Below are positions 10,715-61,039 of a stretch of 61,039 nucleotides of DNA, in pieces. The notes under the pieces were generated by a model. The model was given only the letters and a program-made list of their open reading frames with translations. It was not told where the DNA came from and did not search any database. The position numbers and the translations under genes were made by a program. The stretch's first letter is position 1, and each line of letters begins with the position of its first letter. The stretch spans positions 1 to 61,039 of the forward strand of contig JAFXCP010000032.1 in the NCBI GenBank assembly GCA_017521405.1, in the 5' to 3' direction. The DNA comes from Akkermansia sp. (GTDB lineage: Bacteria; Verrucomicrobiota; Verrucomicrobiia; Verrucomicrobiales; Akkermansiaceae).

Positions 10715-10738
10715 GCCGCCCGCCCGCTTCCCTGCCTA

Positions 10739-11221
10739 TCAGCGTGTGCGGCGGTATGGACCATCCCCCACGGAAAGCACCTCCACCCGCACGGTGTCCA
10801 GCCCGCGCACATAAAAGCCCAAATCCTTAGCAATCTGAGTGCTTACATCAATAAGGCGGCCGGGAATATAGGGTCCGCGATCCGCCACTCGAGCGATGCA
10901 GCTCTTGCCCGTGCGCGGGCAGGTAATCCGCACTACACAGGGCAGCGGCAGGGTGCGGTGCGCGGCATAAAGCTGGCCCCGGTACAGGCGCTGCCCAATG
11001 GCGCCGATGTGGCCGTTTGCCTCGTAGTGGGAAGCGATGCCCTCCGCGCGATAATTCAGGGCATCCTCTACGCTCATGGGTACATAACGCTGGCCTTTGA
11101 CAGTATAGGGGGCTTTTTTATAACCTTTGTACACCGGCCATTTGTTGATGAATCGTTGCTGCTGGCAACCCACCATCAGCAGCATGGCTGCCACCGCTAA
11201 GAGAGAGAAAAAACGTACCAT
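10739..11221 (-). CDS. rlpA: RlpA-like septal-ring lipoprotein (double-psi beta-barrel)
   Basis: A 160-residue lipoprotein: signal peptide with lipobox LMVGC (Cys at about residue 19), then a linker and a RlpA double-psi beta-barrel. The motifs GIASHYE, YAAHRTLPLPCVVRIT and VADRGPYIPGRLIDVS match RlpA lytic transglycosylases, with the general acid Asp in DRGP present. It lacks a SPOR domain, so septal targeting by denuded glycan is not expected. A promoter (TTGAGA, 17 bp, TAGCAT) ends six bases before the ATG, so the message is probably leaderless. Confidence 0.88.
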   Translation of the reverse strand: MVRFFSLLAVAAMLLMVGCQQQRFINKWPVYKGYKKAPYTVKGQRYVPMSVEDALNYRAEGIASHYEANGHIGAIGQRLYRGQLYAAHRTLPLPCVVRITCPRTGKSCIARVADRGPYIPGRLIDVSTQIAKDLGFYVRGLDTVRVEVLSVGDGPYRRTR

Positions 11222-11227
11222 ACCTGT

Positions 11228-11256
11228 ATGCTAACACAACGGGGCAGAAATCTCAA
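11228..11256 (-). promoter_or_regulatory. rlpA promoter placing +1 at the start codon
   Basis: Minus-strand TTGAGA (11256-11251), a 17-bp spacer and TAGCAT (11233-11228). Six bases separate the -10 from the ATG at 11221. Confidence 0.6.
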
Positions 11257-11345
11257 ACTGTTTTGTAAGGTGCGGGTATATTTTCCTATTGGCAAAAGCG
11301 GAGGAATGGGTTAGAATGCGAGTGGTATTCTTAATCTACCGCCCG

Positions 11346-11735
11346 ATGAGAAAATTTTTTACATACATGCTGCTGGGGAGTTTGCTGTGCTGTGCCGCAG
11401 CCGTGGCGGATACGCCGCGCAAAAAGAAGCGCAAGAAGAATCCGACCGCAGCGTACGAGCAGTTTTTAATACGGAGTAACTGCCCCTATTCTCTGCACGA
11501 GGCGGCCACCATGGGAAGCCCGGCCGCAGCGCGAGCCCGCTTGGAAGCGGGGGATAAGGTGCAGGCTCAGGATGAGCAGGGGAACACTCCGCTGCATTTG
11601 GCAGCTGCCGCAGGGCAAACGGAAATGGTGCGCCTGCTGCTCAAGCATGGGGCCTCCAAAAACATGCTGAACAAGGCAGGCAAAAGGCCTGCGGATTATG
11701 CCACAAAGGAATCCATTATCAAGCTGCTGAAATGA
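11346..11735 (+). CDS. exported ankyrin-repeat protein
   Basis: 129 residues from the chosen start MRKFFTYMLLGSLLCC, which opens with a signal peptide (cleavage near AVADT). A basic stretch (PRKKKRKK) follows, then about two and a half ankyrin repeats: SLHEAATMGSPAAARARLEAG, NTPLHLAAAAGQTEMVRLLLKHGA and RPADYA. An upstream in-frame ATG (11289) would add a tail without a signal peptide. The stop overlaps the ATG of the M60 peptidase (ATGA), so the two are likely cotranslated. Periplasmic ankyrin proteins can act as inhibitors or chaperones of partner enzymes; that role here is inference. Confidence 0.8.
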   Translation: MRKFFTYMLLGSLLCCAAAVADTPRKKKRKKNPTAAYEQFLIRSNCPYSLHEAATMGSPAAARARLEAGDKVQAQDEQGNTPLHLAAAAGQTEMVRLLLKHGASKNMLNKAGKRPADYATKESIIKLLK

Positions 11736-13591: not shown

Positions 13592-13598
13592 CCCCCGC

Positions 13599-13628
13599 AG
13601 GTGTTAGAGATATAGATTGCTAACACCT
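13599..13628. other. intergenic stem-loop between M60 gene and poxB
   Basis: Nine-base perfect arms AGGTGTTAG (13599-13607) and CTAACACCT (13620-13628) around a 12-base loop. No T-run follows on either strand, so a processing or weak attenuation role is more likely than simple termination. Confidence 0.5.
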
Positions 13629-13654
13629 TCCACGCATGCGAAAACGATGGGCGT

Positions 13655-15394: not shown

Positions 15395-15413
15395 ACTTTT
15401 GCAGCGGGTGCTT

Positions 15414-16355
15414 TTAGGAGAAAAGCTCCCGCAGGTAGCGGAGGTAATCCCGCCGGGCATCCTCCGGAGCCAAGGCACGGGTGGGCTTTTGGTAGCCCTC
15501 CTGCTGAGCGGGCTCGCCTGTTTCCTCCTCCTCGTCAAAATCCTCATCCGGCCAGGAGAGTTCCATCTCCGGGAAGGCCGGGCGCACACGGCGGGCGCGC
15601 ACCACGAGGTTTTGCACGCCTTTTTGATTGCCGAGAGCCACTTTCCCGGCTCGGCGGGCAGTGAGGATGCGGTTCCGGGGGTTATAACACAGCACCTGTT
15701 CGCAGGCCATTTGCTGGGCAAGTGCCTGAAGGGTGCCATTATCGACATTGTCTTTTCCGCAGCCCAATTTATCTGCCAGCACGGCGGCGGCAAAGGGAGT
15801 CATCTCGAATGGGCCGGTAACGCCCACGGCATCCACACGACCGCCCAGCAGCGGAGTCACGATGTCCACCCCGCTTTTTTTCGTGGTTTTCCAAAGCAAT
15901 GTGGCGGATTTGGTATTGTACTTCTCGATGTAGAAATACTCCTCCGCCAGCAGGTATGCAATGGCTTGCAGCGGGGAAACGCCTATGGCTTTCTTAGCCT
16001 CCTCCTGTAATTCGGAGATGAGCCCTTCGTTCAACACAATGGCCACGGGTTGCTCGTTCCCTTCCATTTCCTGCATCACGGGGTCTTCCACCTCCAGAAT
16101 ATCTGCCAAGCGCGTGGCCATATCGGATACGGAGCCTTCGGCTTCCTCTTCACCGGCCAGCACAAAAGCACCCACTTCCTCCCCCTTGTACATGAGTACC
16201 ACGGCTTTCCACCCGCCTTCCAGGGAGAGGCAAATGGCATCTCCCTGCTTGCGGGTACCTTCGAAAGTGCTGAGGACGTCCTCCGCCGAGATGGCGAAGG
16301 CTGTTCCCACAGCGCTGAGGGCAAGCAAGAGGAGGGAGATAATGCAGCGAATCAT
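15414..16355 (-). CDS. secreted protein of unknown function
   Basis: 313 residues with a signal peptide (about 1-21, ending AFA). I do not recognise a family. Visible features are an N-terminal alpha/beta stretch, a central region with YLLAEEYFYIEKYNTKSATL, one GGRVDAVGVTG turn, several Cys (ADKLGCGK, QQMACEQVLCYN), and an acidic C-terminal tail (WPDEDFDEEEETGEP) before a basic end. It is the last of three genes on this strand, 27 bp after the NahK-like kinase, and its start context suggests cotranscription. Confidence 0.7.
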   Translation of the reverse strand: MIRCIISLLLLALSAVGTAFAISAEDVLSTFEGTRKQGDAICLSLEGGWKAVVLMYKGEEVGAFVLAGEEEAEGSVSDMATRLADILEVEDPVMQEMEGNEQPVAIVLNEGLISELQEEAKKAIGVSPLQAIAYLLAEEYFYIEKYNTKSATLLWKTTKKSGVDIVTPLLGGRVDAVGVTGPFEMTPFAAAVLADKLGCGKDNVDNGTLQALAQQMACEQVLCYNPRNRILTARRAGKVALGNQKGVQNLVVRARRVRPAFPEMELSWPDEDFDEEEETGEPAQQEGYQKPTRALAPEDARRDYLRYLRELFS

Positions 16356-16382
16356 AGGGCTTTGAGAAGAGGGGGGAGGGGC

Positions 16383-17525
16383 TTACTTGTAAGATTTCAT
16401 CAGGCGGCGGATATAGCGCTGCATGGCCGGCAATTTCTTTTCGATGCTCTGTGCCAGTTTGAATTGGTTGCGGGCACGGATGAGGTTATGCTCCGGCTTT
16501 TCCACGCGGAAATAGCGGTCGCCATCCAAATAATCCGTCAGGAAGCGCATACCGATTTCCACGGTGATGAGCCAGCCGGCAAAGGCAAGATTCTCCACTT
16601 CTGCCGGGCAGAGGAAATCGTGCGCGGCATCCAGATACCCCTCCGCAAGTGATTCGAAGAAGGGCATTTGCATGTATACTTGGGAGAGGTCTTCCTCGTC
16701 CTCCTCGGCCATGCAGGTGGCCGTGCGCACCATATCCCCGAAATCGTACAGAGCCAAACCGGGCATCACTGTATCCAAATCGATAACGCAGACGGCATCA
16801 TCCGTTTCCTCATCCAGCATCACGTTATTGATTTTGGTATCGTTGTGCGTAATGCGGGTGGGCAGCTCCCCACGCTGCTGCATATCAATCAAACGGCTAT
16901 ACTTATCCTCCCAGCCGCGAAGCAGCTCCAGCTCTTTTTCGCACCGGGCACGGCGGCCCATCACATCGGCCTCGGCACTGGCAAGGAGGTTGGCATAGCG
17001 TTTCGGGGTGTTGTGGAAATCCGGGATGGATTCTTTAATATCCTCCGGATTCATATCGCAAATAAGCTCTTGGAAGGAGCCGAAGGCATAGCCGGCTTGG
17101 TAAGCCTGGCGTGTGTTTTCCACCACATCGTAGGTATGGGTGGATTCAATGTTGTTGTAGCAGCGCCACATGCCGCCCTCCTCCGGGAGGTTAATGTAGT
17201 TGCGGCCACCACGGGCAGGATAGAGGGTGAGGGTTTGCCCTGCGGCATATTGGCGGCGGCGCAGCAGCTTCCACGTAATGTGGCGGGTTACTTTCTCCAC
17301 ATTGCGCATTACCTGTGCGGGGTCTTTGAACACGTAGTCGTTAATACGCTGGAGAATGTAGCGCTCCTCGCGGCCATCCTCGTCCCTATAGCAGGCTCGA
17401 TAGGTGGTGTTAATGTGACCATTGCACAACTCCTCGCCATAGAGGAACTCCCCGCTAATGGCGAATTGATTGCCGATACGGGCAATTCTCTCCGCCACCG
17501 GGCCGGTGGTATGCTTTGTAATCAT
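16383..17525 (-). CDS. nahK: N-acetylhexosamine 1-kinase-like phosphotransferase
   Basis: A 380-residue cytoplasmic kinase of the aminoglycoside-phosphotransferase fold. GHINTTYRA is the nucleotide-binding loop, the catalytic loop is ITHNDTKINNVMLDEE (about residue 223), and the metal-binding Asp is in CVIDLDTVMPGLALYDFGD. These match NahK, which phosphorylates GlcNAc/GalNAc at C1 in mucin and milk-glycan salvage. No lacto-N-biose phosphorylase or uridylyltransferase lies next to it, so the pathway is split. Its neighbours are two exported proteins of unknown role. Confidence 0.82.
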   Translation of the reverse strand: MITKHTTGPVAERIARIGNQFAISGEFLYGEELCNGHINTTYRACYRDEDGREERYILQRINDYVFKDPAQVMRNVEKVTRHITWKLLRRRQYAAGQTLTLYPARGGRNYINLPEEGGMWRCYNNIESTHTYDVVENTRQAYQAGYAFGSFQELICDMNPEDIKESIPDFHNTPKRYANLLASAEADVMGRRARCEKELELLRGWEDKYSRLIDMQQRGELPTRITHNDTKINNVMLDEETDDAVCVIDLDTVMPGLALYDFGDMVRTATCMAEEDEEDLSQVYMQMPFFESLAEGYLDAAHDFLCPAEVENLAFAGWLITVEIGMRFLTDYLDGDRYFRVEKPEHNLIRARNQFKLAQSIEKKLPAMQRYIRRLMKSYK

Positions 17526-17578
17526 GGCTCTTGCAGGATAGTAAGAAAGAGAGAGAAAGGGGGGCTATACCTGCTCGC

Positions 17579-18412
17579 TCAGCGCCCCTTGCGAGCAGGG
17601 GCAGCACCGCCGCCGGACGGGCTGCTCTTCTTATCTGCCGGCAGTTGGATGGGCATGAACTTGGGCGCGTTGCGAGTGGTATCCTTCACCACTATGGTAA
17701 TCTGGGACTGGCGGTCGGACACAACAAAGGTGGAAGCCTTGAGGCGTTTCAGCTCTTTGCTGCCGGGCTCTGCATAAGAGAGGAGGAAGGAAACCTTCTC
17801 GCCATTCTTCTCGCCCTTGAAGGACCAGGAGTTCTTATCCGTCACGCCCTCACTAGAGTGGAACACGCCGATGGTGCTGACCTCTTTATCCTTGAAATCC
17901 CCGGATTTAGAGACGGCCATTTGCAGCGGGTAGGAGGAGAAGTTAATCACATGCACCCCTTTGCGCGGGAAATTGCCCTCGTTCACAAAGATGGTGCGGG
18001 GCTTACCCGTGCCGGGTACAAGAATGCCCACATGGCGACCGGAGCCGGGGGCATCCTCAACCACCAAGTAGGGAGGCGGCAATTTTTTAGCTTTCGCGCC
18101 CTTATCTCCCGCATCCTCCTTGGGGCTGGGGTCCTTATCCCAGAAGCGGATAACGCCATTGATGGGGCGCACCCGTGCGCTGGGTACACGGCTACCCACG
18201 TTAATCTTGCGGAATTCCTTACCATCCTGATAATACAGGGGGGAGGGAACCGTGCCGCCGGAAGGGGCGCATACTACAAAACGGATACCGGTGCGGGCCT
18301 CCGCCTGCTCACCGGCAGCGGCTGCTCCACCGGCAGCACGAGCGGAACGGCTCTGGGCACACAAGGGCATGGCCAGCACGGAGGCCATAAGGAGAATGGG
18401 CAGAATCTTCAT
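17579..18412 (-). CDS. secreted protein of unknown function
   Basis: 277 residues from MKILPILLMASVLAMPLCAQ, a clear signal peptide; an in-frame ATG 41 codons upstream is rejected because it would precede that peptide. After an Ala-rich linker come beta-rich segments (IRFVVCAPSGGTVPSPLYYQDG, RVRPINGVIRFWDKD) and a Lys/Pro-rich C-terminus ending GGAAPARKGR. No catalytic motif is recognised. It leads a three-gene unit with the NahK-like kinase. Confidence 0.7.
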   Translation of the reverse strand: MKILPILLMASVLAMPLCAQSRSARAAGGAAAAGEQAEARTGIRFVVCAPSGGTVPSPLYYQDGKEFRKINVGSRVPSARVRPINGVIRFWDKDPSPKEDAGDKGAKAKKLPPPYLVVEDAPGSGRHVGILVPGTGKPRTIFVNEGNFPRKGVHVINFSSYPLQMAVSKSGDFKDKEVSTIGVFHSSEGVTDKNSWSFKGEKNGEKVSFLLSYAEPGSKELKRLKASTFVVSDRQSQITIVVKDTTRNAPKFMPIQLPADKKSSPSGGGAAPARKGR

Positions 18413-18587
18413 AAAACAACAAATAAGAGTACGGGAAGATAGTATATCACCCGCCTTACCAAAGCAAGCAGAAAATGGCTCCGTGCCTTTGTCGGCAGTG
18501 GAAAATTCCCCTCCCTGCGCCCCGGAATGCCACATTTACGCTTTTCCTTAACAGCTATCCCGTGTTACTATCTTTGCCGATAAAACC

Positions 18588-19478
18588 ATGCCCAGTATCT
18601 TCCTCCTCTTTGGCGGCAGCGGCCGCACCGGTCAAATAACGGCTCGCGCCGCTACCCGCGCGGGCTACCAGCTGCTGGCTCCCTCCCATGTGGAATGCCC
18701 CTTGGAGGATGCGGAAGCCGTATCGGACCTCGTGCTGCACAGTAAGGCGGCCGTGGTGGTAAACTGTGCGGCTATCAGCGGGCTGGAGGCCTGCGCCGCT
18801 AATCCCCTGCAAGCCCATTTGGTGAATGCTGTGGCACCGGCAGCCATGGCCTTAGCCTGCCGCCACACGGGAGCGCGCTTCATCCACCTCTCCACGGATT
18901 ATGTGCTGGATGGCCGCCGCGCCGGGTTGAAAAACGAATCCGCCAAGTGCCGCCCCGCCGGCTGGTATGCCGAGAGTAAGCGGGAGGGGGAGCTGGAAGT
19001 GCTGGAGGCACTGCCGGAGGCACTGGTGGCCCGCGTTTCCTGGATATGCGGGAACCCGGCGCGCCCCGCATTTGTGGAGCAGGCACTGGCGCGTGCCCTG
19101 CGCGGGGAGCCGCTGGCTGCCGTGGCGGATAAGTACTCCCTGCCCACGGATGCGGAGGATATTGCCCGGGTTCTGCTTTCTCTGGCGGAGGGGGAGGCGC
19201 ACGGCATTCTGCACCTTTGTTCCCTCGGGGAGCCATGCAGCTGGTGGGAATGCGCCCACACTGCCTTGCAGGAGGCCGTGGCCTGCGGAACCCTGCCGGC
19301 CATGCCTCCCTTGGTTCGGCAGGAGCTGGATAAAGTGCCTTTCTTCCGCGAGCCGCGCCCCCGCCATACGGCTATGGATGCCACGCGACTCTTCACAATG
19401 GGTATCCCCATGCCCACGGCCGATGAGTGCGTACGGCGGGTGGCACGCCGTTTTCTTGCCGCACTCACCGGGTGCTAA
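18588..19478 (+). CDS. RmlD-like sugar-nucleotide reductase (SDR family)
   Basis: 296 residues of the dTDP-4-dehydrorhamnose reductase type. The NAD(P)-binding motif FGGSGRTGQ is at the N-terminus, VVVNCAAISGLEAC matches the NCAAxTxVDxAE motif loosely, HLSTDYVLDG carries the catalytic Ser/Thr, and YAESKREGE gives the YxxxK pair. The family makes dTDP-rhamnose or related activated sugars. No rmlABC genes are near and the VDxAE motif is degenerate, so the real substrate may differ. It lacks an obvious operon partner. Confidence 0.75.
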   Translation: MPSIFLLFGGSGRTGQITARAATRAGYQLLAPSHVECPLEDAEAVSDLVLHSKAAVVVNCAAISGLEACAANPLQAHLVNAVAPAAMALACRHTGARFIHLSTDYVLDGRRAGLKNESAKCRPAGWYAESKREGELEVLEALPEALVARVSWICGNPARPAFVEQALARALRGEPLAAVADKYSLPTDAEDIARVLLSLAEGEAHGILHLCSLGEPCSWWECAHTALQEAVACGTLPAMPPLVRQELDKVPFFREPRPRHTAMDATRLFTMGIPMPTADECVRRVARRFLAALTGC

Positions 19479-19509
19479 TGCTTGCGCCGCCACCAAAGGT
19501 ATTTTTTTC

Positions 19510-19537
19510 TTGCCCGAAATCCGGCGCATGTTAGAAT
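19510..19537 (+). promoter_or_regulatory. promoter with +1 at the ATG of the SecD head-like gene
   Basis: TTGCCC (19510-19515), 16 bp, TAGAAT (19532-19537), then six bases to the ATG at 19544. Confidence 0.5.
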
Positions 19538-19543
19538 GTAAAC

Positions 19544-20464
19544 ATGTCGCTGCTTACACTGCTTCTCTCCTTGCTTACAAGCCTGTTACCCGTGGCGGAC
19601 CAGCTCCGGGGAGAGGCGGAATCCGCAGCACCGCCCGAGCTGCCGGAGCGAGAGCTGGTGCTGGAGCTGCTGCCCGATGCCGCCCCCATGAATGGGCGCG
19701 AGGAGGAACTCATGCATGCAGCCATTATCCAGCGTTGCGAGGATGTGGGGCTGCGGGGGCTACGCCTCCGCCAAGAGGGGAAGCTCTTCCGCCTCCATGT
19801 GCGGAATGGTCTTATCCCCACCATGGAGGAGTATACGGATACGCTGGATGATTTGGAATATACCCTGAATGCCCGCACCACACTGCGTTTGCTGCGGGTA
19901 CATCCGGATTCCGGGCAGTTGGTGCAGGATGCCGCTTTGCAACAGGCCTTGGTCGAGTACGAGAAGGCCATGGTGGCTTATGAGGATGGACACGATGCGA
20001 ATACCCCACGGCCTTCCCTGCCGCCTCTGCCCGCGCGCCTCAATGGGTATATGCTGGCGGAATGGCGCAAGATGAATGGGGAGGATAGCGCCTGCGTGTT
20101 TGAATACTTAGTAGTGCAACACCCGGAGTTCGCCCGCAGGGAGGGCATTCTGATTACGGAGGAGATGGTGCGCCGCTGCCGCCCGGATTCCTCCCGCCCG
20201 CATTGTGTGGAGGTGCAGCTCTCCCACCGGGGAGCGCACACGATGGAACGCCTTACCTCCCCCATGCACATGGGAAAACAGCGCCTCGCCATCATTATTA
20301 ACGGTACGGTTACCTGCGCCCCCATTATCCATACCCCACTTAGCGATGAGTTCACCATCTCCGGGTTAAGCCGGGAGGAGATTGACCAACTCGCAGCCGG
20401 TTTGGCACTGCCGCTGCCGCGCCCGGTAAAGGTGCAGCGCAAAGCCACCGCCTCCGGCATCTGA
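19544..20464 (+). CDS. stand-alone SecD periplasmic-head-like protein
   Basis: 306 residues with an N-terminal hydrophobic signal (about 1-17). The rest mirrors the periplasmic P1 region of the SecDF encoded next door. Shared elements are a Tyr/Ala/Glu-rich insert (VEYEKAMVAYED here, MAYEEKLAAYEA in SecDF), a Pro-rich PSLPPLPARLNGYM/PRIPSKFGLNDYM segment, EYLVVQ/EYMVLQ, and GKQRLAIIINGTVTCAPII/GRDRLAVVLNNQIKCAPVV. It has no other membrane segments. It could be a detached duplicate that helps SecDF capture substrates. Function is inferred only from this likeness. Confidence 0.75.
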   Translation: MSLLTLLLSLLTSLLPVADQLRGEAESAAPPELPERELVLELLPDAAPMNGREEELMHAAIIQRCEDVGLRGLRLRQEGKLFRLHVRNGLIPTMEEYTDTLDDLEYTLNARTTLRLLRVHPDSGQLVQDAALQQALVEYEKAMVAYEDGHDANTPRPSLPPLPARLNGYMLAEWRKMNGEDSACVFEYLVVQHPEFARREGILITEEMVRRCRPDSSRPHCVEVQLSHRGAHTMERLTSPMHMGKQRLAIIINGTVTCAPIIHTPLSDEFTISGLSREEIDQLAAGLALPLPRPVKVQRKATASGI

Positions 20465-44199: not shown

Positions 44200-45120
44200 C
44201 TATCCAAGTAGCAGGTTTATAGCTTTCCGTGCCAAAATAGTCACATCCTCTCCGGCAGAAAGCGCATGCAGCCAAGTCTCCCGGCGCAGCCAAGTACGCT
44301 GGCGTTTGGCGTACTGCCGCGTAGCAAGTGCAAGAGAAGCCTCCAACTCTGCCGCCGATATTTCGCCACGCAAGTGTGCCTGCACCTGCGGCAAGCCCAA
44401 GGTGCGCGACGCAGTATCAGAAAGAACCCTGTTTTGCAAAGCTGCTATCTCCTGCACCACACCTTCCGCCAGCATTTTTTTTGCTCGGTGGGCAATACGT
44501 GCATCCAATGCAGCCGTTTCCCATACCAAGTGCAAGCCTGCTCCTATGGGGCTTGTCCAATTACTCTTCCAGTGGGAAAGAGGTTTGCCCCCCAGCAGCA
44601 CAATCTCTAAATTGCGGATAACATAACGCGGGTTTTGCAAATTCGTAGCTGCGGCTCCCTCCGGGTCAATCCGGCGAAATTCCTCCACCACCTCCTCAAA
44701 AGGCCGAGTCTCCAAATCTGCACGAAGAGCCGCAGAGGATGGTGGAGCCGGAGAAATTCCATGGGAAATAAATTTTACATACAAACCGGAGCCGCCGGTT
44801 ACAATCGCTATCTTTCCGCGAGCATGAATATCCCGAATGCACTCCCCTGCCCTGCGAGCATGAGTAGCGGCATCGTTATTTTCCGTAAGTTCCATGCATT
44901 CCACCAAATGGTGGGGAACTCGGTCCCTCTCTTCCATGCTCGGTGCCGCAGTCAATATAGGCATACCACGGTACACTTGGTAAGCATCCGCGCTCACAAT
45001 CTCCGCATTACCCAGCAGCTCCGCCACTGCCACGGCGAGGGCGCTCTTGCCACTGCCGGTAGGCCCCAAGATGAAGTACGTTGTTCCACGTGGAACATCT
45101 ATTCTCCCCTGCTCTCTCAT
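44200..45120 (-). CDS. miaA: tRNA dimethylallyltransferase
   Basis: 306 residues from MREQGRID (45120); the ATG eight codons upstream would overlap the DUF805 gene that ends at 45122. It adds the isopentenyl group to A37 of tRNAs reading UNN codons. Markers are GPTGSGKSALAVAVAE, the catalytic-Asp motif VSADAYQVYRGM, VTGGSGLYVKF, and the C-terminal TRQYAKRQRTWLRR. A perfect parS-like palindrome lies inside its first codons (45082-45097). Confidence 0.96.
   Translation of the reverse strand: MREQGRIDVPRGTTYFILGPTGSGKSALAVAVAELLGNAEIVSADAYQVYRGMPILTAAPSMEERDRVPHHLVECMELTENNDAATHARRAGECIRDIHARGKIAIVTGGSGLYVKFISHGISPAPPSSAALRADLETRPFEEVVEEFRRIDPEGAAATNLQNPRYVIRNLEIVLLGGKPLSHWKSNWTSPIGAGLHLVWETAALDARIAHRAKKMLAEGVVQEIAALQNRVLSDTASRTLGLPQVQAHLRGEISAAELEASLALATRQYAKRQRTWLRRETWLHALSAGEDVTILARKAINLLLG
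45082..45097. other. parS: parS-like site 1 (perfect palindrome)
   Basis: TGTTCCACGTGGAACA is a perfect 16-bp palindrome that differs from the common parS TGTTTCACGTGAAACA by one symmetric base pair. It is in the miaA coding region, as parS sites often are. ParB would bind it and load the partition complex. Confidence 0.75.
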
Positions 45121-45121: not shown

Positions 45122-45760
45122 TTACCACCTCGGAATATCCCCATACAGATTCTCTTTTCTCTGCCCCGGCAGAAGGGTAAAAATAAATAAAGGAACAGCG
45201 GTAGCAGAGCAAAACGGCAGCAGAATAAATTGGCAAAACCACATGGGACCGCTCACCAATTCCTTCGTAAGCATCCTCGTCAGCAGAACATCTGCTACCT
45301 CTTCACACCCACCGGACATATCCATCAAGTGAGCATAAAAAACGCTGGCTTCCATCATCAGATTCACGATGCAGAAAACATACAAAGCATAAGCAATGCA
45401 GAAAAAGGAGAAAAAGAAAACCACCCACCATGCACTACGCCCCACATCGTGCAGGCGCCGCACCAGCACCGTCGTCATGGGCAAAGCCAAGTATAAAGCC
45501 ACCAGTAAAAAAAGCAGCAGCAGCCCCGCCGCTGCCACCAAACTGAACGGCTCCGAAAGCAAAAGACAAAACGGCAGCAAAAAAAGCGGCAGAAGCGTAA
45601 GGAGTGAACCAAAGAGCATACAGCTCCAATACTCCCTCCGAGAAGCACGTCCCCGGAAAACAGCATAGCGGTCGCGTTTCAACGTAGCGCAGAAACATCC
45701 CCAAAGGGAGGGCTGCTCCACTACTTGCGGAACGGAAGGAAGATTTGAATCCGGCATCAT
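45122..45760 (-). CDS. DUF805 membrane protein
   Basis: 212 residues. FRGRASRREYWSC starts the DUF805 domain and VRRLHDVGRSAWW closes its core, with four to five hydrophobic segments around them. There is no GYF-like domain, unlike the two paralogues upstream. It follows the second paralogue without a gap and precedes miaA by one base. The family function is unknown; it is often an inner-membrane protein of stress or envelope operons. Confidence 0.9.
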   Translation of the reverse strand: MMPDSNLPSVPQVVEQPSLWGCFCATLKRDRYAVFRGRASRREYWSCMLFGSLLTLLPLFLLPFCLLLSEPFSLVAAAGLLLLFLLVALYLALPMTTVLVRRLHDVGRSAWWVVFFFSFFCIAYALYVFCIVNLMMEASVFYAHLMDMSGGCEEVADVLLTRMLTKELVSGPMWFCQFILLPFCSATAVPLFIFTLLPGQRKENLYGDIPRW

Positions 45761-46642
45761 TTAACCAAGGGGGTATTTGCGGGAGGGTCCGTATTTGTTA
45801 CTTCCCCGCCGGCTATTGGTACATGCTACAATAATCGTAGCTAAAACGGCAAGATAAAACAACAGCTCAAGGGAAAGATAAGTCAGCGTCATGGGAGGTT
45901 CCGCCATACTCCAATTCAGTATGAAATGCTGTATGCCTTCCTGTGCATCCACCATATGCCACTCGGATAAGGACAAGGCCGAATGTATCGCGGCACGAAT
46001 GGTATAGACTACATAAGAGACATTAATCGCCAAAATAATCAGCGCCCACTTGCCGCTACGGCCTATATCGTGCAAACGCCGCACCAATAAACTATAGTAG
46101 GGGAAACTGAAAAAAAGCATGGTTATTCCCATAAGCAAATGCCCCGTCAGCAGGATACCGAGGGCAATGGAATCCAACTGCCCATATCGGAACATAGCAT
46201 ACCCTGTACCGCCCGCAATAAGAAGCGCAACAAGTAGCAGAAGAAGCGTTATCCAAAATACCCAGCCCCAGTATTCCCTGCGTGTAGCACGCCCTCGCAG
46301 GGAGAAGAAACGCTCATTCATGCAGTAAAGAAAATGGGAGTAAAGGGATTTTCCGCCGGGCATAAGTTTCCCGTGGCACTCCGGGCATTCTTTGGGTAGC
46401 ACGCCCTGCACCAAGGCGATACCGGCGCCGCATAATTCGCAGTTAACGTAATTGGGTACCGCTCCGGGAACGCGAGCCAATAAAGCCGCCACCACAGACC
46501 ATTCTTTATCCCGGTATGCAGCAGCTCGAGTGCTAAGGCTTATCTTCCCCTCCACCAGCAGTGTTTGCAAATCCTCCAAACGATGAGGACCACATATGCG
46601 GTTTTCCTCATCCAAATAATAATAGTACAATGAATCAGCCAT
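45761..46642 (-). CDS. GYF_2-zinc ribbon-DUF805 membrane protein
   Basis: 293 residues from MADSLYYYYLD (46642), which overlaps the stop of the upstream paralogue by 8 bp; an ATG 13 codons earlier is less likely. Domain order is GYF_2/DUF4339 (YYYLDEENRICGPH, about 6-50), a zinc ribbon with two CxxC pairs (CELCG, CPECH), then DUF805 (LRGRATRREYWGW to VRRLHDIGRSGKW) with four or five membrane helices. This is a common signalling-like architecture of unknown role. Confidence 0.88.
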   Translation of the reverse strand: MADSLYYYYLDEENRICGPHRLEDLQTLLVEGKISLSTRAAAYRDKEWSVVAALLARVPGAVPNYVNCELCGAGIALVQGVLPKECPECHGKLMPGGKSLYSHFLYCMNERFFSLRGRATRREYWGWVFWITLLLLLVALLIAGGTGYAMFRYGQLDSIALGILLTGHLLMGITMLFFSFPYYSLLVRRLHDIGRSGKWALIILAINVSYVVYTIRAAIHSALSLSEWHMVDAQEGIQHFILNWSMAEPPMTLTYLSLELLFYLAVLATIIVACTNSRRGSNKYGPSRKYPLG

Positions 46643-47501
46643 GGGGATAAAGCATAGAAGGTCCGTATTTATTCGCACCACGTTTACCGGGCAGCAGCAG
46701 CATAATGAAGAGGTACAAACCCAGTACGAGGTATTCTAAAAAGGAGAACGAAAAGATAGCGAGGGAAAGTATAAAGCCATTTCCATTCAGCAAGATGCAG
46801 CAGACCATGGAAATCATCATTTGTACCATGGCTGCCAAAGAAAACCATACGCCATATGCCCCGTGATTAGAATCGTGCAGACGCCGTATAGTTACCGCAA
46901 GCAAAGGTATCAATATAGCTAAAGTGTAAAGAAAATTCACAAACAACACTGCCAGCATAAGGGGGTTTCCATAGTAGGCCATCATTGCTGCCATGCGCTG
47001 CGTTATCGGCACCCCGGCATCCTGCATAATGATGGCTTGCTGCATGAGTTCCTCACTCATACCAAAGCCCACAACTAATTGCCCAAGCATTCCCAGCGCG
47101 AAGCTGAATAAATACATAAACAAGTAAAATCCCCAAAATTCGGAGCGTGTTGCCCTGCCCTTAAAATCCGCATAATGGCGCAGGCAATACAAAAAGTTGT
47201 TCCATAGGTTACTGTTTTCTTCCGGGTGAATCTCCCGATGACAATGCGGGCAGAGGGCCGGCGCTTCTACGGAAACGATTTCTTGCTTGCATTTTGGGCA
47301 TCTTCCGATGGGTGCTGCTTCTCTGCTTATACCACCGGATGCTGCTAAAAGTTCTCCTATGGTTTTCCATGTATCCGTGCCTGCCACGGCAGCAAGGCTA
47401 TCCTCCTTCAACATTCCGGAGGCGAGAAAGGTGCGTATCTCCTCCTCTTTGTATGGGCCAACAGCTTTCTTGTCCCCATCTAAATAATAATATTGCAGCA
47501 T
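46635..47501 (-). CDS. GYF_2-zinc ribbon-DUF805 membrane protein, first of the triplet
   Basis: 288 residues from MLQYYYLDGDKK (47501); the frame is open into the 6S RNA locus, but the earlier ATG would place 32 odd residues before the GYF_2 domain. Layout matches the next gene: GYF_2 (YYYLDGDKKAVGPY), zinc ribbon (CPKC, CPHC), and DUF805 (FKGRATRSEFWGF, IRRLHDSNHGAYG). It heads a four-gene unit: two full paralogues, one short DUF805, then miaA. Confidence 0.88.
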   Translation of the reverse strand: MLQYYYLDGDKKAVGPYKEEEIRTFLASGMLKEDSLAAVAGTDTWKTIGELLAASGGISREAAPIGRCPKCKQEIVSVEAPALCPHCHREIHPEENSNLWNNFLYCLRHYADFKGRATRSEFWGFYLFMYLFSFALGMLGQLVVGFGMSEELMQQAIIMQDAGVPITQRMAAMMAYYGNPLMLAVLFVNFLYTLAILIPLLAVTIRRLHDSNHGAYGVWFSLAAMVQMMISMVCCILLNGNGFILSLAIFSFSFLEYLVLGLYLFIMLLLPGKRGANKYGPSMLYPHG

Positions 47502-47564
47502 TTCGCGCTCTATTATGCACGCGCACGCATTGGGAGTCAAGCCTTCACCCGCAAAAAATATGGA

Positions 47565-47746
47565 TGACCGCCGTGCCGTCAGTGGTAGAAGAGCCACGTT
47601 CCCTATAAGCAGGTGGGTGCGGAGCCAGGGTCCTTTGAGGTATCCTTATATGGACGGAACATAATACCCTATTAAGCTTGATGCCCCTTGTGAATCTACA
47701 ACGGTCCGGGCCTGTAGAACCACGCGTCACGTACACGGCAGCCGAT
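47565..47746 (-). ncRNA. ssrS: candidate 6S RNA
   Basis: About 180 nt on the minus strand. It starts after a textbook promoter and ends before a T-run (47558-47553). The ends pair: GCTGCCGTG (47742-47734) with CACGGCGGT (47575-47567), then GTGG with CCAC. The 3' half holds CTCCGCACCCACCTGCTTA followed by AGGGAACGTGG, which is the wording I associate with 6S RNAs, and the middle can form an open bubble. 6S RNA mimics an open promoter and holds sigma70 RNA polymerase in stationary phase. It sits between divergent protein genes with no ORF of its own. Confidence 0.7.
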
Positions 47747-47798: not shown

Positions 47799-47814
47799 TG
47801 TTCCATGTGGAACA
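47799..47814. other. parS: parS-like site 2
   Basis: TGTTCCATGTGGAACA, identical to site 1 except for one central base. It lies intergenically between the 6S RNA promoter and the argS promoter, exactly at the switch of gene direction. Confidence 0.65.
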
Positions 47815-49637: not shown

Positions 49638-50918
49638 ATGAGCCTCCTTCGCTTATTTACTTGTTTCACCTGCGCCGCCGGTCTTTGCTGGGCCGACGGC
49701 GCAGCTCTTCCCGCAGAGCCGCAAAAAGTTCTGCTGCCCATAAGCCTTATCACCACACAGGAGGAGACTAAGCAACTCATCTCTCTGGGATGGCAAGAGC
49801 AACTATTGGGTAACAGCGAAGGAGCCCGAAACTATTTTGAAAAAGCCCTGCAACTGGAGCCCCAGCCTATGGCTCTTGCCGGCATGCTTATGCTTCTGCC
49901 ATCCGGAAGCGAGGAGTATTCCAAATACCTGCAAGAATTACGCCAACTCATGGCGGAGCAAAGCTCCATCTCCCCCGCAGAGGGTTTTTACCTGAATTGC
50001 TTCCTGAAACTCATTAGCGGAGATTTAGCCGGAGCCGCTGCAGATTTTCGTGCACGCGCGCTTAAATATCGCGCAGATCGTTTTTCTGCCTGCTGGGCAC
50101 TGGTGCTGGGTCACTATGCAGGGCAGGGGAGTGAATTGGCAGAACTCATCCTCCATGCTAATGAACGCTTTGTGGAACATCCCTTCATCCTCTTTGCTTC
50201 TGCACTTCAGGAAGAGCATGCGGAAAATCCCTCCGAGCTTGCTCTCCAAAGAGCAGCTAAGGCTGCGGAACTTTTCCCGCACTCTGCACATATGCACTGG
50301 CTGCACGGCCATTTACTTTACCGCCGGGGAGAGCGAAAACAAGCAGCCCAAGTTTTTTCCCGGGCCTATCAGGCATCTTCTCCTTTTTCCGAATCCTGGT
50401 ATGCCTGCGGCCTTTATCTGGCCACGGCCAAACGCGGAGCTTTTCCCGGCAACTGTGCCAAGCAATCGGAGCCATTAGCCCGCTGGGAGGTTTCCACATT
50501 GCCTCTGCGCCTCCTTTTGTTTCAAAAGAAAAATCCGAATGCCAAGGAAATCCGCAAGGCTGTTCAGGCAGCTCAGTACAGCGGGGCAGGGGAGGCATAT
50601 ACTCATTATACCCGCTGCCTGCATTCTGCCCTCCAAGTACGCTTCCTCGCTCGCAAACGGGCAAAGGCAGCAGCTCTCGCTATGAAGAATGCAGAGGAGG
50701 AAGCCCATCGCTTCCATGTGGCTCGCACTGCTATGCAGGCTTGCAATGCCATGGAGCTTTCCTGCATGCAGCGCGCAGAGTTAGCTTGTAAGTTTGCAAT
50801 TCTTGCAGCACGCATCCATCTTTACCCGGATTCTCTCTCTCTTTGGAAGGATAGCTTAGAGGAATTAGCCAAATCGCCGCCTTCTCGCATGCTTCCACCC
50901 ATTGTACCTATGGATTGA
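49638..50918 (+). CDS. exported TPR-like protein
   Basis: 426 residues with a signal peptide (about 1-20). TPR-type helices are visible: EQLLGNSEGARNYFEKALQL, then GHLLYRRGERKQAAQVFSRA. The remainder is helical, Ala/Leu/Arg-rich, with many Cys. No catalytic motif is seen. It probably acts as a periplasmic scaffold. It starts 10 bp after argS, so they are likely cotranscribed. Confidence 0.7.
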   Translation: MSLLRLFTCFTCAAGLCWADGAALPAEPQKVLLPISLITTQEETKQLISLGWQEQLLGNSEGARNYFEKALQLEPQPMALAGMLMLLPSGSEEYSKYLQELRQLMAEQSSISPAEGFYLNCFLKLISGDLAGAAADFRARALKYRADRFSACWALVLGHYAGQGSELAELILHANERFVEHPFILFASALQEEHAENPSELALQRAAKAAELFPHSAHMHWLHGHLLYRRGERKQAAQVFSRAYQASSPFSESWYACGLYLATAKRGAFPGNCAKQSEPLARWEVSTLPLRLLLFQKKNPNAKEIRKAVQAAQYSGAGEAYTHYTRCLHSALQVRFLARKRAKAAALAMKNAEEEAHRFHVARTAMQACNAMELSCMQRAELACKFAILAARIHLYPDSLSLWKDSLEELAKSPPSRMLPPIVPMD

Positions 50919-50940
50919 TTTGTTCCACATGGAACAAATC
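50917..50940. other. parS: parS-like site 3
   Basis: The core TGTTCCACATGGAACA (50921-50936) is the reverse complement of site 2. The palindrome extends to 24 bp (arms GATTTGTTCC and GGAACAAATC). It overlaps the last codon region and stop of the TPR gene. Confidence 0.65.
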
Positions 50941-50953
50941 TTTCCTCTTCCTC

Positions 50954-50982
50954 TTGACGTCTTGGAGAAAATTTGGTACAGT
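50954..50982 (+). promoter_or_regulatory. lipoprotein promoter, near-leaderless
   Basis: TTGACG (50954-50959), 17 bp, TACAGT (50977-50982), nine bases before ATG 50992. In-frame upstream ATGs precede the promoter and are not usable. Confidence 0.6.
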
Positions 50983-50991
50983 AAGTACCGT

Positions 50992-51609
50992 ATGAGGTTG
51001 TTCTCCGCATTACTCTTTAGTTGTGTTCTTCTCTCCTCCTGTGCGTACATGCAAACGCACAAGAACATCCGGGAAGCGGATTTAAGTTACACCGGCTATC
51101 ATATAACTCGTAGCCCGGAGCTTTACCAAGCAGGGAATAAGTGGTACATCGGGGCAGATAGTCGCACCCTGCGTAAGGAATATCCGATTATTCACGACGA
51201 GATTCTGCTCACAGGCCATAATGCACCCCGCTGGGCGGAATTATCCGCCGGAGAGCCGAGCAAGAAGATTTACCATGAAATTTCACATGGTACAGCCATA
51301 GTATTGCAGCGCAAGGATGGCTTCGCGACAACTTACGATTTAGCCGGGGAGATTGACGATTCCGGGCATAATTGGCTGGAAAGATTGCCCAAAGGAGCTA
51401 CGCGCCGTACTGTGCAGGCAGAAATCGTGGGCACGGATGCGAACATGCCTACCCGCTGCCTCCCGCAGCAAGAACCCGCGCTCAGTACAAAAGTTCTTTC
51501 CTGGGCAGATAAAATCGTGGTTGATTACCCCGGGACAGTTCTCTACAACATAGCCATACCTTTCATGGCTCCCTTTGTATTCTTCCATGAATTCCTGAAC
51601 GAAGATTAA
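50992..51609 (+). CDS. lipoprotein of unknown function, paralogue A
   Basis: 205 residues from MRLFSALLFSCVLLSSC; the lipobox LSSC sets the modified Cys at about residue 17. The soluble part is beta-rich (SYTGYHITRSPELYQAGNKWYIGAD). The C-terminus has DKIVVDYPGTVLYNIAIPFMAPF, a hydrophobic segment shared with the next gene (VDVPGTVLANIGDVIITPF). No family is recognised. The pair is a tandem duplication that has diverged strongly. Confidence 0.72.
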   Translation: MRLFSALLFSCVLLSSCAYMQTHKNIREADLSYTGYHITRSPELYQAGNKWYIGADSRTLRKEYPIIHDEILLTGHNAPRWAELSAGEPSKKIYHEISHGTAIVLQRKDGFATTYDLAGEIDDSGHNWLERLPKGATRRTVQAEIVGTDANMPTRCLPQQEPALSTKVLSWADKIVVDYPGTVLYNIAIPFMAPFVFFHEFLNED

Positions 51610-51640
51610 CTTTCTTCTTTCTCTCTCCCCCACCTACCTC

Positions 51641-52264
51641 ATGAACAAATATCTTCTCTGTCTGCTCAGCATTGTATCCCTTTTGTTAAGTTCCTGCATT
51701 GTCAGCACGCATCGGCCAGTAATGGATATGGGGCGAAGCGGGCAGGGTACCCAACTTCCCGGCCACGTTACCACATTGTACAAACACGGCAGCGATTGGT
51801 ACATTGAAGGCGTGCAAGGAAATTACCGCTTAAAAGGGCGCAAGATGGTCTATACCTTTGTGCAGCCTTACGAGGGCGGACGTTACACCCTCACACGGGG
51901 AAAAAGAGTTAGAGTGTATTACAAACTAACGGCCGAGGAGGTACAGCTGATGCGAAAATACGGGCAGCTGATTACAAACTACCGGCAAAGCAGGGTGGTA
52001 CCATACTTACCGCAGGGTGCCGTACCCATGGCGATGCATGGCAAACTGGTGGATTTTCACAATCCCGGGAGTCCCAGCTGCGAGAACAAGGAGGGTCCCG
52101 TGGCGATTCCTCCCCGGCTTAAGGCAAATTGGAAGGCTGCTTTTGCTTATCCGCTGGCCGCTATTGCCTTCGTGGCAGTGGATGTTCCGGGGACTGTTCT
52201 CGCGAATATAGGTGATGTTATCATCACACCCTTTGTGGGCATTTACCACCGTATAGTTTATTGA
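51641..52264 (+). CDS. lipoprotein of unknown function, paralogue B
   Basis: 207 residues. The signal peptide ends in the lipobox LSSC (Cys at about 19). The N-terminal soluble part (LYKHGSDWYIEGVQGNYRLKG) parallels paralogue A, and the C-terminal VDVPGTVLANIGD hydrophobic segment is shared. It lies 31 bp after paralogue A and is the last gene before the AT-rich putative origin. Confidence 0.72.
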   Translation: MNKYLLCLLSIVSLLLSSCIVSTHRPVMDMGRSGQGTQLPGHVTTLYKHGSDWYIEGVQGNYRLKGRKMVYTFVQPYEGGRYTLTRGKRVRVYYKLTAEEVQLMRKYGQLITNYRQSRVVPYLPQGAVPMAMHGKLVDFHNPGSPSCENKEGPVAIPPRLKANWKAAFAYPLAAIAFVAVDVPGTVLANIGDVIITPFVGIYHRIVY

Positions 52265-52540
52265 TTATCAATAATTAGCAATACTTATTCACAAATCGGT
52301 GAATAAGTAGGTAAAAAAATGGTCAATAAAATAGTGAATAAGTATGCATGGGAGAGTTATTCCCCACATCTTATCGACAGTTATTCACTTGGGGTGAAAA
52401 ACGGCACATTTAAAAATCAATGAGTTAAGGTACTTACTCACTTATTCACCGGACTGATGATGATGAATTTATAAATTATATTCTTATACATCATCAAAAA
52501 AGGGAAATGATGAGAACAACCGTTAGCGGGAAGCAGCTTA
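52265..52540. other. oriC: candidate chromosomal replication origin (DnaA-box cluster)
   Basis: No gene fits this 318-bp AT-rich gap. DnaA-box-like TTATTCAC octamers occur at 52285 and 52381 and 52442 (+) and at 52299 and 52334 (-, read as GTGAATAA). TTATCGACA (52371), one base from the E. coli box, and TTACTCACT (52434) add to them. Two boxes form an 11-bp perfect inverted repeat (52282-52292/52299-52309). After the last box come GGAC, a GATGATGATGAA repeat and an AT-rich stretch (52465-52500) suited to unwinding. The parS-like sites lie 1.3-7 kb to the left. Alternative: a DnaA-titration or regulatory site. Confidence 0.6.
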
Positions 52541-52548: not shown

Positions 52549-52576
52549 TTGACAGAAGGGCGGATGCTGATACAAT
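52549..52576 (+). promoter_or_regulatory. ribD promoter, leaderless
   Basis: TTGACA (52549-52554), 16 bp, TACAAT (52571-52576). Six bases separate the -10 from ATG 52583, so +1 should be the A of the start codon. Confidence 0.65.
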
Positions 52577-52582: not shown

Positions 52583-53641
52583 ATGAGTGAGCAGGTAGGA
52601 GATTCCCAGGATGCATACTGGATGGAGTATGCCTTGGATTTGGCGCGATATGGTATAGGGACCACAAGTCCCAATCCTCCCGTGGGTGCTGTCATTGTGA
52701 AACACGGGCGTATGCTGGGGGAAGGCTACCATCGCAAAGCAGGGGAGCTGCATGCGGAGCGCCGTGCCATTGCCAATGCCATCGAACGCCAGAATGAGGG
52801 AGAACTCTCCGGAGCTACCATTTATGTAACGCTGGAACCATGCTCCAGCCATGGGCGTACTCCGCCATGTGTGGATGCCATTATTGAGCACGGAATTAAA
52901 CGCGTGGTATACGGCTCGAAGGATCCGGACCCGCGGCACAGGGGCAGGGCGGATTGGATTTTGCGGAACAGGGGTATAGAGGTTCTTGCCGGAGTGGAAA
53001 AGGAAGCCTGCGACCGCCTCATCCGTCCATGGGCACATTCTGTGCTTACTCAGCGTCCATGGGTGGTGGCAAAAGTGGCCAGCACGCTGGATGGGCACAT
53101 GACTCGAAGCGGCAGCCGCTGGTTAAGCTGCCCGGAGGGTTTGCGCTATGCCCACCAGCTGCGGCTGGAAAGCGATGCAATACTTGTGGGCGGCGGTACT
53201 GTGCGTTGCGATAATCCGGCGCTTACAATACGCATGCCGATACACTCCATACCGGAATATAAGCAGCAGCCATGGCGCATTGTATTAACATACGACAAGC
53301 AGAAACTACCCGCAGATTCCACCCTCTTTACGGATGAGTATGCCGCGCGTACTCTGGTGTACGAAGATGTGGAGGATTTGGAATATATGCTGCACGAGTT
53401 GTATTGCAAGTATGGTATTGTACAGCTCATGCTGGAATGCGGCGGAAAACTGCTGCGAAAGTTCTTAGAGCAAGGGCTGGTCAATGAGATGGTACATTCC
53501 TTGTGCCCCATTATTGGCGGGGGAGGGGACGATATGGTACCCGGAGATTTTCTTCCGCAGGAGTTGTTATTCCAGCGGGAGAGTATTGAACCGGCGGGAA
53601 TGGATATTATACTGCGTGGAGTCCTGATGCCCTTGCGCTGA
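52583..53641 (+). CDS. ribD: bifunctional riboflavin deaminase/reductase
   Basis: 352 residues. The N-terminal deaminase has the zinc motifs HAERRAI (about residue 57) and PCSSHGRTPPC (about 89), with TSPNPPVGAVIV before them. The C-terminal reductase has VVAKVASTLDGHM and DAILVGGGTVRCDNPALTIR. It catalyses steps two and three of riboflavin synthesis. No other rib genes are near. Its stop overlaps the next ATG (TGATG). Confidence 0.95.
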   Translation: MSEQVGDSQDAYWMEYALDLARYGIGTTSPNPPVGAVIVKHGRMLGEGYHRKAGELHAERRAIANAIERQNEGELSGATIYVTLEPCSSHGRTPPCVDAIIEHGIKRVVYGSKDPDPRHRGRADWILRNRGIEVLAGVEKEACDRLIRPWAHSVLTQRPWVVAKVASTLDGHMTRSGSRWLSCPEGLRYAHQLRLESDAILVGGGTVRCDNPALTIRMPIHSIPEYKQQPWRIVLTYDKQKLPADSTLFTDEYAARTLVYEDVEDLEYMLHELYCKYGIVQLMLECGGKLLRKFLEQGLVNEMVHSLCPIIGGGGDDMVPGDFLPQELLFQRESIEPAGMDIILRGVLMPLR

Positions 53642-59429: not shown

Positions 59430-61039
59430 ATGAGACTGCATCTCCCCTCTCGTTTATTTCGTGACGTCATCGCTTTGATGGTGGCAGTTCCCTCCGCTCT
59501 GTATGCTGCCTACACGGCACCCACGGAAATTGTGATTCCGGAGTTGTATACCACTGAAGTACTGGTAGATGAAGTGAGCGATATTTCAGCTTACGCTAAC
59601 TCTGCCGATGCAATTGCTTTCCGGCTCATCGAGGATGTGGGCATCAGCGCTCTGGATGATGTACTGATGGAATCGGGGCTGGGTTCCTTCTATTTCACCA
59701 GCCATGCCCCGGAGGCACTCAAATCCCTGAGCTTCTCGGATAATACCGCTTGCCTTTTCAATGTGAGCGCAGAAAAATTCCTGGAATTCATCGCGCTTCA
59801 GGATGTCAGTTTCAATAGAAACACCGGCCCCATTCATGGAGAAGAGAACAGCACTATCACCTTAAATTGTAACGAGGCGGTCACCTTTAGCGAGAATACG
59901 TCTTCCTCCTCCGGCGGCGCGATTTATGGGGGCAAGGATAGCACCATTATGCTGAGCAACAACGACATGGTGAGCTTCAGCGAGAACACGTCTTCCGGCT
60001 CCGGCGGCGCGATTTATGGGGGCAAGGATAGCACCATCATGCTGAGCAACAACGGCACGGTGAGCTTCAGCGGGAACACGGCTTCCTACGGCGGCGCGAT
60101 TTATGGGAGATCCTACTCCTCCAGCACCATCACGCTGAGTAACAACGGCATGGTGAACTTCAGCGGGAACACGGCTTCCTACAGTGGCGGCGCGATTTAT
60201 GGGGACGCCCGCAGCCGCATCACGCTGAGCAACAACGGCGAGGTGACCTTCAGCGGGAACACGGCTTCCGGCTCCACCAACGGCTCCGGCGGCGCGATTT
60301 ATGGGAGCAGCTCCTCCAGCCGCATCACGCTGAGCGACAACGACACGGTGACCTTCAGCGGGAACACGGCTTCCTGCACCGGCGGCGCGATTTATGGGGA
60401 CTACAAAAGCACCATCACGCTGAGCAACAACGGCATGGTGACCTTCAGCGGGAACACGGCTTCCTCCTACGGCGGCGCGATTTATTCGGGCAGCAATCTG
60501 CACATCCGCAACAATGATTCCGTGGAATTTGCGGGCAATGTGGAGAAATCCGGTTCTACTTATCGACTGAGGAGCATATATGTATACGGCGGCAGTGGGG
60601 ATGTCGTGTCACTCTCTGCAGCGGAGGGGAAGAGTATCATCTTTCGGGATTCGGTTTACATCGACAGCGGTACCACGGTGGATTTGAATGCCGATTACAA
60701 TGGTCTTGCGCAGAAGGGCGATATTCTCTTTACCGGCGCTACCACGGAGGCGGATTTGCTGGCGGTGAAGGGCAGTGCCGGCACGGCGGAGGAGATTCTG
60801 AATTCCCGCACCACGGAGGTGCTTGCGATGACGAATCTGTACGGCGGGCGCCTGCGTGTGGAGGATGGCGCGGTGTACCAAGGACAAGGTATCACTGTTC
60901 ATGAGGGCTCGGAAGCCACGGTGCGGGTGAAGGATGCCACGCTGAACCACAAGGGCTATAACTTGAGCTTCGCTTCCGGCACGGCACTGGAGGTGGAAGG
61001 CAGCAGCACCATTAGCGGCAATGTGGTGCTGAATGATGG
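59430..61039 (+). CDS. repeat beta-helix surface protein, 3' end cut by the window
   Basis: At least 536 residues, open at the right edge. The signal peptide (about 1-28, ending LYAAY) is followed by a linker and at least seven tandem units of 29-34 residues with the pattern GGAIYG-x-S-x-ITLSNNG-x-V-x-FSGNTAS, then a non-repeat beta-rich region (DSGTTVDLNADYNG, GATTEADLLAVKG). This is a pectin-lyase-like or autotransporter passenger of the polymorphic-membrane-protein style (GGAI and FxxN motifs). The end, either a barrel or a PEP-CTERM tail, lies outside. All spacings are multiples of three, so copy changes keep frame. Confidence 0.8.
   Translation, partial: MRLHLPSRLFRDVIALMVAVPSALYAAYTAPTEIVIPELYTTEVLVDEVSDISAYANSADAIAFRLIEDVGISALDDVLMESGLGSFYFTSHAPEALKSLSFSDNTACLFNVSAEKFLEFIALQDVSFNRNTGPIHGEENSTITLNCNEAVTFSENTSSSSGGAIYGGKDSTIMLSNNDMVSFSENTSSGSGGAIYGGKDSTIMLSNNGTVSFSGNTASYGGAIYGRSYSSSTITLSNNGMVNFSGNTASYSGGAIYGDARSRITLSNNGEVTFSGNTASGSTNGSGGAIYGSSSSSRITLSDNDTVTFSGNTASCTGGAIYGDYKSTITLSNNGMVTFSGNTASSYGGAIYSGSNLHIRNNDSVEFAGNVEKSGSTYRLRSIYVYGGSGDVVSLSAAEGKSIIFRDSVYIDSGTTVDLNADYNGLAQKGDILFTGATTEADLLAVKGSAGTAEEILNSRTTEVLAMTNLYGGRLRVEDGAVYQGQGITVHEGSEATVRVKDATLNHKGYNLSFASGTALEVEGSSTISGNVVLND
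59913..60487 (+). repeat. tandem coding repeats, seven GGAIYG units
   Basis: GGCGGCGCGATTTAT starts at 59913, 60003, 60090, 60186, 60288, 60381 and 60471 (spacing 87-102 bp). The first two units are nearly identical over 90 bp, which favours slippage or recombination. Confidence 0.9.

Follow-up and report, generated by a model that had tools for sequence, protein, structure and literature searches.

A probable DnaA-dependent chromosome origin upstream of ribD in Akkermansia, with DnaA boxes that appear to change together with the DnaA recognition helix

The locus described here lies in a window (the whole stretch of DNA that was analysed, 61,039 nucleotides) from an Akkermansia genome. Its core, of about 230 bp (52266-52496), is flanked by a small lipoprotein-like ORF and by ribD. 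The features of the core and of its surroundings are the following, the box assignments being predictions from sequence matches:

45082-45097, no strand assigned: parS-like site TGTTCCACGTGGAACA (pattern TGTTYCAYRTGRAACA)
47799-47814, no strand assigned: parS-like site TGTTCCATGTGGAACA (same pattern)
50921-50936, no strand assigned: parS-like site TGTTCCACATGGAACA (same pattern)
52282-52309: inverted DnaA box pair, TTATTCACA at 52285-52293 (+) and TTATTCACC at 52298-52306 (-), forming an 11-bp inverted repeat
52333-52341, minus strand: predicted DnaA box TTATTCACT
52357-52365 and 52371-52379, plus strand: near-boxes TTATTCCCC and TTATCGACA, candidate weak DnaA sites (7/9)
52381-52389, plus strand: predicted DnaA box TTATTCACT
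52434-52442 and 52442-52450, plus strand: tandem co-oriented boxes TTACTCACT (7/9) and TTATTCACC, adjoining the putative unwinding region
52451-52455, plus strand: five-base spacer GGACT, from the last box to the trinucleotide array
52456-52467, plus strand: DnaA-trio-like period-3 array GATGATGATGAA on the box strand
52465-52488, no strand assigned: A+T-rich putative unwinding element (81% A+T over 52469-52505)
52489-52496, minus strand: CATCATCA, which repeats the left TGATGATG arm in inverted form beyond the A+T-rich stretch
52549-52576, plus strand: promoter-like TTGACA-16-TACAAT of ribD, directly outside the putative origin
52583-53641, plus strand: ribD (Pfam RibD_C and deaminase), adjoining the box array across the genus

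An earlier note on this DNA had proposed a candidate oriC without dnaA next to it, and the layout that it described was found again: five TTATTCAC octamers on both strands (52285+, 52299-, 52334-, 52381+ and 52442+), two near-boxes (starting at 52357 and 52371, each 7/9 to TTATTCACA), an 11-bp perfect inverted repeat built of two boxes (52282-52292 and 52299-52309) and then the GGACT, the repeat and the A+T-rich stretch. Beyond the exact octamers, seven 9-mers between 52200 and 52600 match TTATTCACA at 7 of 9 positions. The window as a whole contains seven TTATTCAC, a number reached by none of 100 shuffles (mean 1.14, sd 1.00). In the 1,985,446-bp assembly the octamer has 47 matches, and the five at 52285-52449 are the sole cluster of more than two; for TTATCCAC, which has 131 matches, the nearest pair among the 100 listed is 272 bp apart and none of these 100 are clustered. 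The earlier note described the box as different from the usual one; it matches the TTWTNCACA consensus given in a passage of PMC7561715, and within the genus T is more frequent at position 5.

Several features of the neighbouring genes were also recorded. The ribD promoter pattern occurs once, against a mean of 1.7 in shuffled sequences, so that taken alone it is weak evidence; its spacing from the ATG suggests that the ribD mRNA would be nearly leaderless. Immediately to the left of the core, two adjoining small lipoprotein-like ORFs (50902-52264, plus strand) have in common a C-terminal PGT-V-L-x-N-I region, and the second has no Pfam match; a protein of this type directly precedes the putative origin in many of the relatives inspected. 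Further to the right, the ORF at 59862-60503 (minus strand), which has repeats of the type INRAA..SRVPAEGHHAVVAQRD and gave no match in a Pfam search, may not be a real gene.

Box arrays are found upstream of ribD throughout the genus. A ribD match was obtained in 74 of 77 genus genomes, 73 of them with at least 400 bp upstream and 72 also with a typed DnaA. The upstream sequence of L213 (Akkermansia sp. RGIG3086) is identical to that of G057. Left out were G005, G047 and G064 (no ribD match at the cut-off), G054 (no DnaA match) and G012 (165 bp upstream only, no DnaA match). An origin before ribD in other families was considered and rejected, as inspection by eye of L026, L027, L029, L031, L217, L218, L223 and L242 revealed no array there. 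One of these, L242, is titled Akkermansia muciniphila MiH-14oct19-163; its RibD is 45% identical to that of the window, and the title of the record is probably wrong. In three Akkermansiaceae MAGs (L215, L216 and L222) an inverted TTCTTCTTC array is present near ribD, next to a box-like site in L215 and L216; an origin beside ribD may be more widespread in the Akkermansiaceae. The outer convergent pair of boxes, considered as a fixed element, was rejected, as only 27 of the 73 genus origins have such a pair within 20 bp.

The end of the locus that would unwind is organized in a regular manner. Runs of at least three GAN trinucleotides were counted, without anchoring, in 61 of the 73 origins against 63 of 1460 shuffles, and runs of at least three CTN in two. 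The array profile is built on 61 of the 73 origins and, being anchored on the run, has invariant A's partly by construction. The alignment set contains 67 of the 73 origins (G008 and G080 were skipped; G014, G055, G068 and G090 were below threshold); like the profile, it is anchored on the longest GAN run and leans towards it. In 53 of these 67 origins a second tandem box (at least 6/9) lies 8 or 9 bp upstream of the first, for a background of 3.1% per position, and in 45 an inverted arm of at least 6 bp is present across the A+T-rich stretch (about 14% in shuffles). The distance from the end of the best box to the array is 5, 8, 11 or 14 bases in 63 of 70 origins, and the box-array phase modulo 3 is identical in 66 of the 70. 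As in a basal unwinding system, one or two boxes of the same orientation lie no more than 16 bp from the array. The canonical DnaA-trio, 3'-GAT-5' opposite the box strand, i.e. CTA on the box strand, was rejected as a conserved feature on the expected strand in view of the two CTN runs against the 61 GAN runs. Read on the opposite strand, the array of the window fits a loose NAN rule (GAC-TAC-TAC-TAC); in the best register, at least three of four trinucleotides follow that rule in 28 of the 67 aligned origins.

The strongest evidence for a putative oriC at this locus is the co-variation of the boxes with the recognition helix of DnaA. Residues are numbered here as in E. coli DnaA. The helix reads GRDHGTV[IL]HA in 66 of the 75 typed genus proteins. 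Residue 433 differs in five: G001, G003, G072 and G073 have GRSHATVLNA and G076 has GRSHGTVIAA, so that residue 439 is changed as well in all five. At least one TTATYCAC was present in 65 of the 67 genomes with D433 (GRDH) and in none of the five with S433 (GRSH), a difference (Fisher 1.5e-6) whose independence is overstated because each helix/box switch belongs to a single clade. The S433 origins retain the GAT array and have boxes of their own: seven of the pattern TTRYTGAC, of TTATTGACA type, in G076, and four to six CTGACA in each of the other four, numbers that none of 500 shuffles reached in either case. These five genomes make up one clade (support 1.0) with G076 as sister to the other four (1.0), which amounts to one event and not five; the nodes that nest this clade among D433 lineages have supports of 0.65-0.90. 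A second pair varies in another clade: four genomes with S or T at 435 (support 0.888) contain 15 TTATCCAC and 2 TTATTCAC, and the 63 genomes with G435 contain 32 and 177, respectively. The window agrees with this pairing, its DnaA having G435 and its boxes being TTATTCAC. The changes pair up as 433 D to S (439 also changed) with box position 6 C to G, and 435 G to S/T with box position 5 T to C; for helix types GRDHG, GRDHS/T, GRSHG (G076) and GRSHA the preferred box forms would be, in parallel, TTATTCACA, TTATCCACA, TTATTGACA and TTGCTGACA.

The pairing has exceptions. G068, G081 and G086, with G435, carry only TTATCCAC; G087 and G090 keep D433 and have only degenerate sites, without TTATYCAC. 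In G063 (L151), also D433, the last box, proximal to the DUE, is already TTATTGACA, as in the G076 lineage. Residues 432-435 and 438-439 are among those listed as contacting bases in a passage of PMC5043019. One literature passage ascribes box position 7 to D433 and L438, whereas the change observed in these genomes affects position 6.

The same data could be read as drift in a decayed origin, the locus still being oriC and the box change having no matched change of code. That the D433S change is confined to one clade and to five genomes is in favour of such a reading, which we nevertheless judge unlikely. The new boxes are numerous, with counts that greatly exceed those of shuffles (0/500 in all five genomes for the leading pattern of each); some of them are paired in tandem ahead of the array in the way seen in relatives, and both array and A+T-rich stretch are kept. 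Each of the five genomes has a single DnaA C-terminal match, and the second pair, residue 435 with box position 5, co-varies elsewhere in the genus. A matched change is thus the reading that we retain: the starter protein and its DNA sites appear to have changed together in one group of relatives. A limited search of open-licence papers yielded no description of a DnaA/box code switch within a genus. The GRSH clade, whose sister lineage G076 keeps boxes closer to the old form, would constitute a natural test of a joint change of specificity in an essential initiator and its origin sites.

The three parS-like sites, which the earlier note had placed 1.3-7 kb from the boxes, lie at a distance of 1.3-7.2 kb, and the assembly has no other match to their pattern (the reversed control pattern has no match at all). 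Among the 24 same-genus relatives searched, 22 have parS matches (G005 and G008 have none) and, as read from the match lists, 19 of the 22 have at least one no more than about 15 kb off on the contig that carries ribD; in G006, G016 and G024, which are fragmented assemblies, parS is found only on other contigs. This closeness is what a ParABS origin domain would show. Between two of the sites in the window, three successive similar-looking membrane-protein ORFs occupy 45122-47597 on the minus strand, and the one at 46635-47597 has DUF805 and GYF_2 domains.

GC skew, which the earlier note had suggested as a check, was sampled as 20 stretches of 20 kb per genome in the single-contig relatives G004, G015 and G040. 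It changes sign between adjoining stretches at the box array, and the stretches nearest to dnaA display no sign change in any of the three. With rising coordinate, the mean skew on the two sides was -0.062/+0.062 for G004, -0.084/+0.099 for G015 and -0.064/+0.088 for G040. The expected sign was found in 58 of the 60 stretches (20/20, 19/20 and 19/20, respectively), the two exceptions being about opposite the locus on the chromosome. Inside the 61-kb window the skew is mixed, with no clean flip (+0.004 for 1-52264, -0.082 for 41-52 kb and -0.022 to the right of the putative origin, where the contig ends after 8.6 kb); for the species of the window the inference is therefore based on relatives and parS. 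The region 1-20000 has a positive skew, up to +0.2, of sign opposite to that expected on the left of an origin, and is possibly an island or a rearrangement. Gene direction is of limited help as an origin marker. The statement of the earlier note that intact genes run left for 11 kb to the left of 47.8 kb, and right from there to 58.5 kb, agrees with the ORF lists of the window, but little origin signal was seen in G004 and G015, where the fraction of plus-strand ORFs was 0.42 and 0.49 on the ribD side and 0.51 and 0.46 on the other; there is thus no leading-strand bias at the locus in these two relatives.

Clusters of DnaA boxes of the datA/DARS type exist, and the array stands directly upstream of the promoter-like site of ribD; it could accordingly bind DnaA for titration or for control of ribD, with replication starting elsewhere. 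We consider this very unlikely. The skew changes sign exactly at the locus in three relatives, parS sites are present there, tandem boxes are combined with an in-phase period-3 array and an A+T-rich stretch, and the assembly has no competing cluster of TTATTCAC (nor of TTATCCAC among the 100 of 131 matches listed).

An oriC beside dnaA is a common bacterial arrangement. The putative origin of the window is not adjacent to dnaA: the single Bac_DnaA match of the assembly is on another contig (C31), where the surrounding 3.5 kb lack TTATYCAC, and dnaA and ribD are separated by 0.32-0.39 of the chromosome in six single-contig relatives. A better box cluster next to dnaA, the possibility raised by the earlier note, was looked for and not found: TTATYCAC occurs at 0.096 per kb (24 in 250 kb, three at most per locus) in 81 dnaA loci of about 3 kb each from genus and outgroup genomes, versus 6.43 per kb (230 in 35.8 kb) upstream of ribD in the 73 genomes. 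An origin at dnaA has hardly any chance of being correct in the face of this scarcity of boxes and of the unchanging skew at dnaA in G004, G015 and G040, even though in the verrucomicrobium Methylacidiphilum the origin was placed 250 nt from dnaA (in a passage of PMC2474590) and some single-contig records are numbered from that gene (match at C1:1126 in G041, G045 and G048). From the box cluster, the parS sites, the skew of relatives and the co-variation, we conclude that the window very probably contains a DnaA-dependent chromosome origin, located upstream of ribD rather than at dnaA.

The array, its genus-wide placement before ribD, the parS sites, the skew, the phase of the period-3 array and the box/helix co-variation come from sequence comparison, and from them we infer a course of events for binding, unwinding, helicase loading and segregation. 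Domain IV of DnaA would bind the boxes, namely the inverted outer pair, those in the middle and the tandem pair at 52434-52450. Assembly of ATP-DnaA would then proceed from the tandem pair over GGACT to the period-3 array and would open the A+T-rich stretch. DnaB would be loaded, probably with DciA, which is present, and ParB at the nearby parS sites would handle segregation.

The strand captured by DnaA is likewise a matter of inference. In the nine Akkermansia DnaA proteins inspected, the equivalents of E183, N187, R202 and E228 are kept, as placed by eye with the B. subtilis numbering. According to passages of PMC10721633, these are the residues that capture the trio in B. subtilis, where C as the middle base gives more initiation than G or T; the other strand may accordingly also be read as 3'-NCT-5'. 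A joint reading can be put forward, tentatively and as something possible rather than probable. DnaA would capture a period-3 array of opposite polarity (read 5'-GAN along the box strand, or 3'-NCT-5', with a central C, along the other) that flanks the unwinding stretch in mirror image, and a sub-lineage would have rewritten the DnaA/box code (in G076, 433S/439A with C6 to G; in its four sisters, 433S/435A/439N with C6 to G and T4 to C). If so, the mirrored arrays would provide a loading array on both strands. The reversed array would put the strictness of the strand rule for DnaA-trio capture to the test.

Origins that lie apart from dnaA have been described before. For 12 gut strains, among them A. 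muciniphila YL44, a Hi-C study inferred origins from parS, skew and coverage, and these do not systematically coincide with dnaA (passages of PMC10197239). YL44 belongs to the same genus as the present case; the passages concerned contain no box array, gene neighbour or co-variation. What would be gained here is a concrete 230-bp position for the origin of a gut genus that is widely studied; with an origin at the ribD locus, there would be no need to assume dnaA in coverage-based estimates of growth rate, in orienting contigs or for origin plasmids.

A close likeness in layout is with B. subtilis incC, which combines two co-oriented boxes, a short spacer, a period-3 array in fixed phase and an A+T-rich stretch (passages of PMC8287927 and PMC10721633). 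It differs in that the box strand reads CTA in B. subtilis (a passage of PMC10201434) and 5'-GAT/GAA in Akkermansia, and in that the Akkermansia array is mirrored across the A+T-rich stretch. Of the four Bacillales loci examined, those of Peribacillus and Planococcus have CTACTA after the boxes on the box strand and the two of Cytobacillus do not match the pattern; compared with this CTA, the GAN of Akkermansia means an array of opposite polarity. The H. pylori trio is given as 5'-CTA-3' for the upper strand, and unwinding was inhibited when its polarity was reversed (a passage of PMC8235120). With regard to the boxes, the Epsilonproteobacteria (H. pylori type) also have a T5 box (TYATTCACN) and a residue 435 that often differs from the T of E. 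coli, but there T5 goes mostly with S435 (passages of PMC5043019), whereas in Akkermansia it goes with G435 and S/T435 goes with C5; a simple rule linking residue 435 to position 5 thus fails across phyla. Finally, Thermotoga maritima similarly combines changed DnaA recognition residues with a changed box, AAACCTACCACC (a passage of PMC6669920), but it belongs to a distant phylum and its box is a 12-mer, whereas the Akkermansia change would have occurred within one genus.
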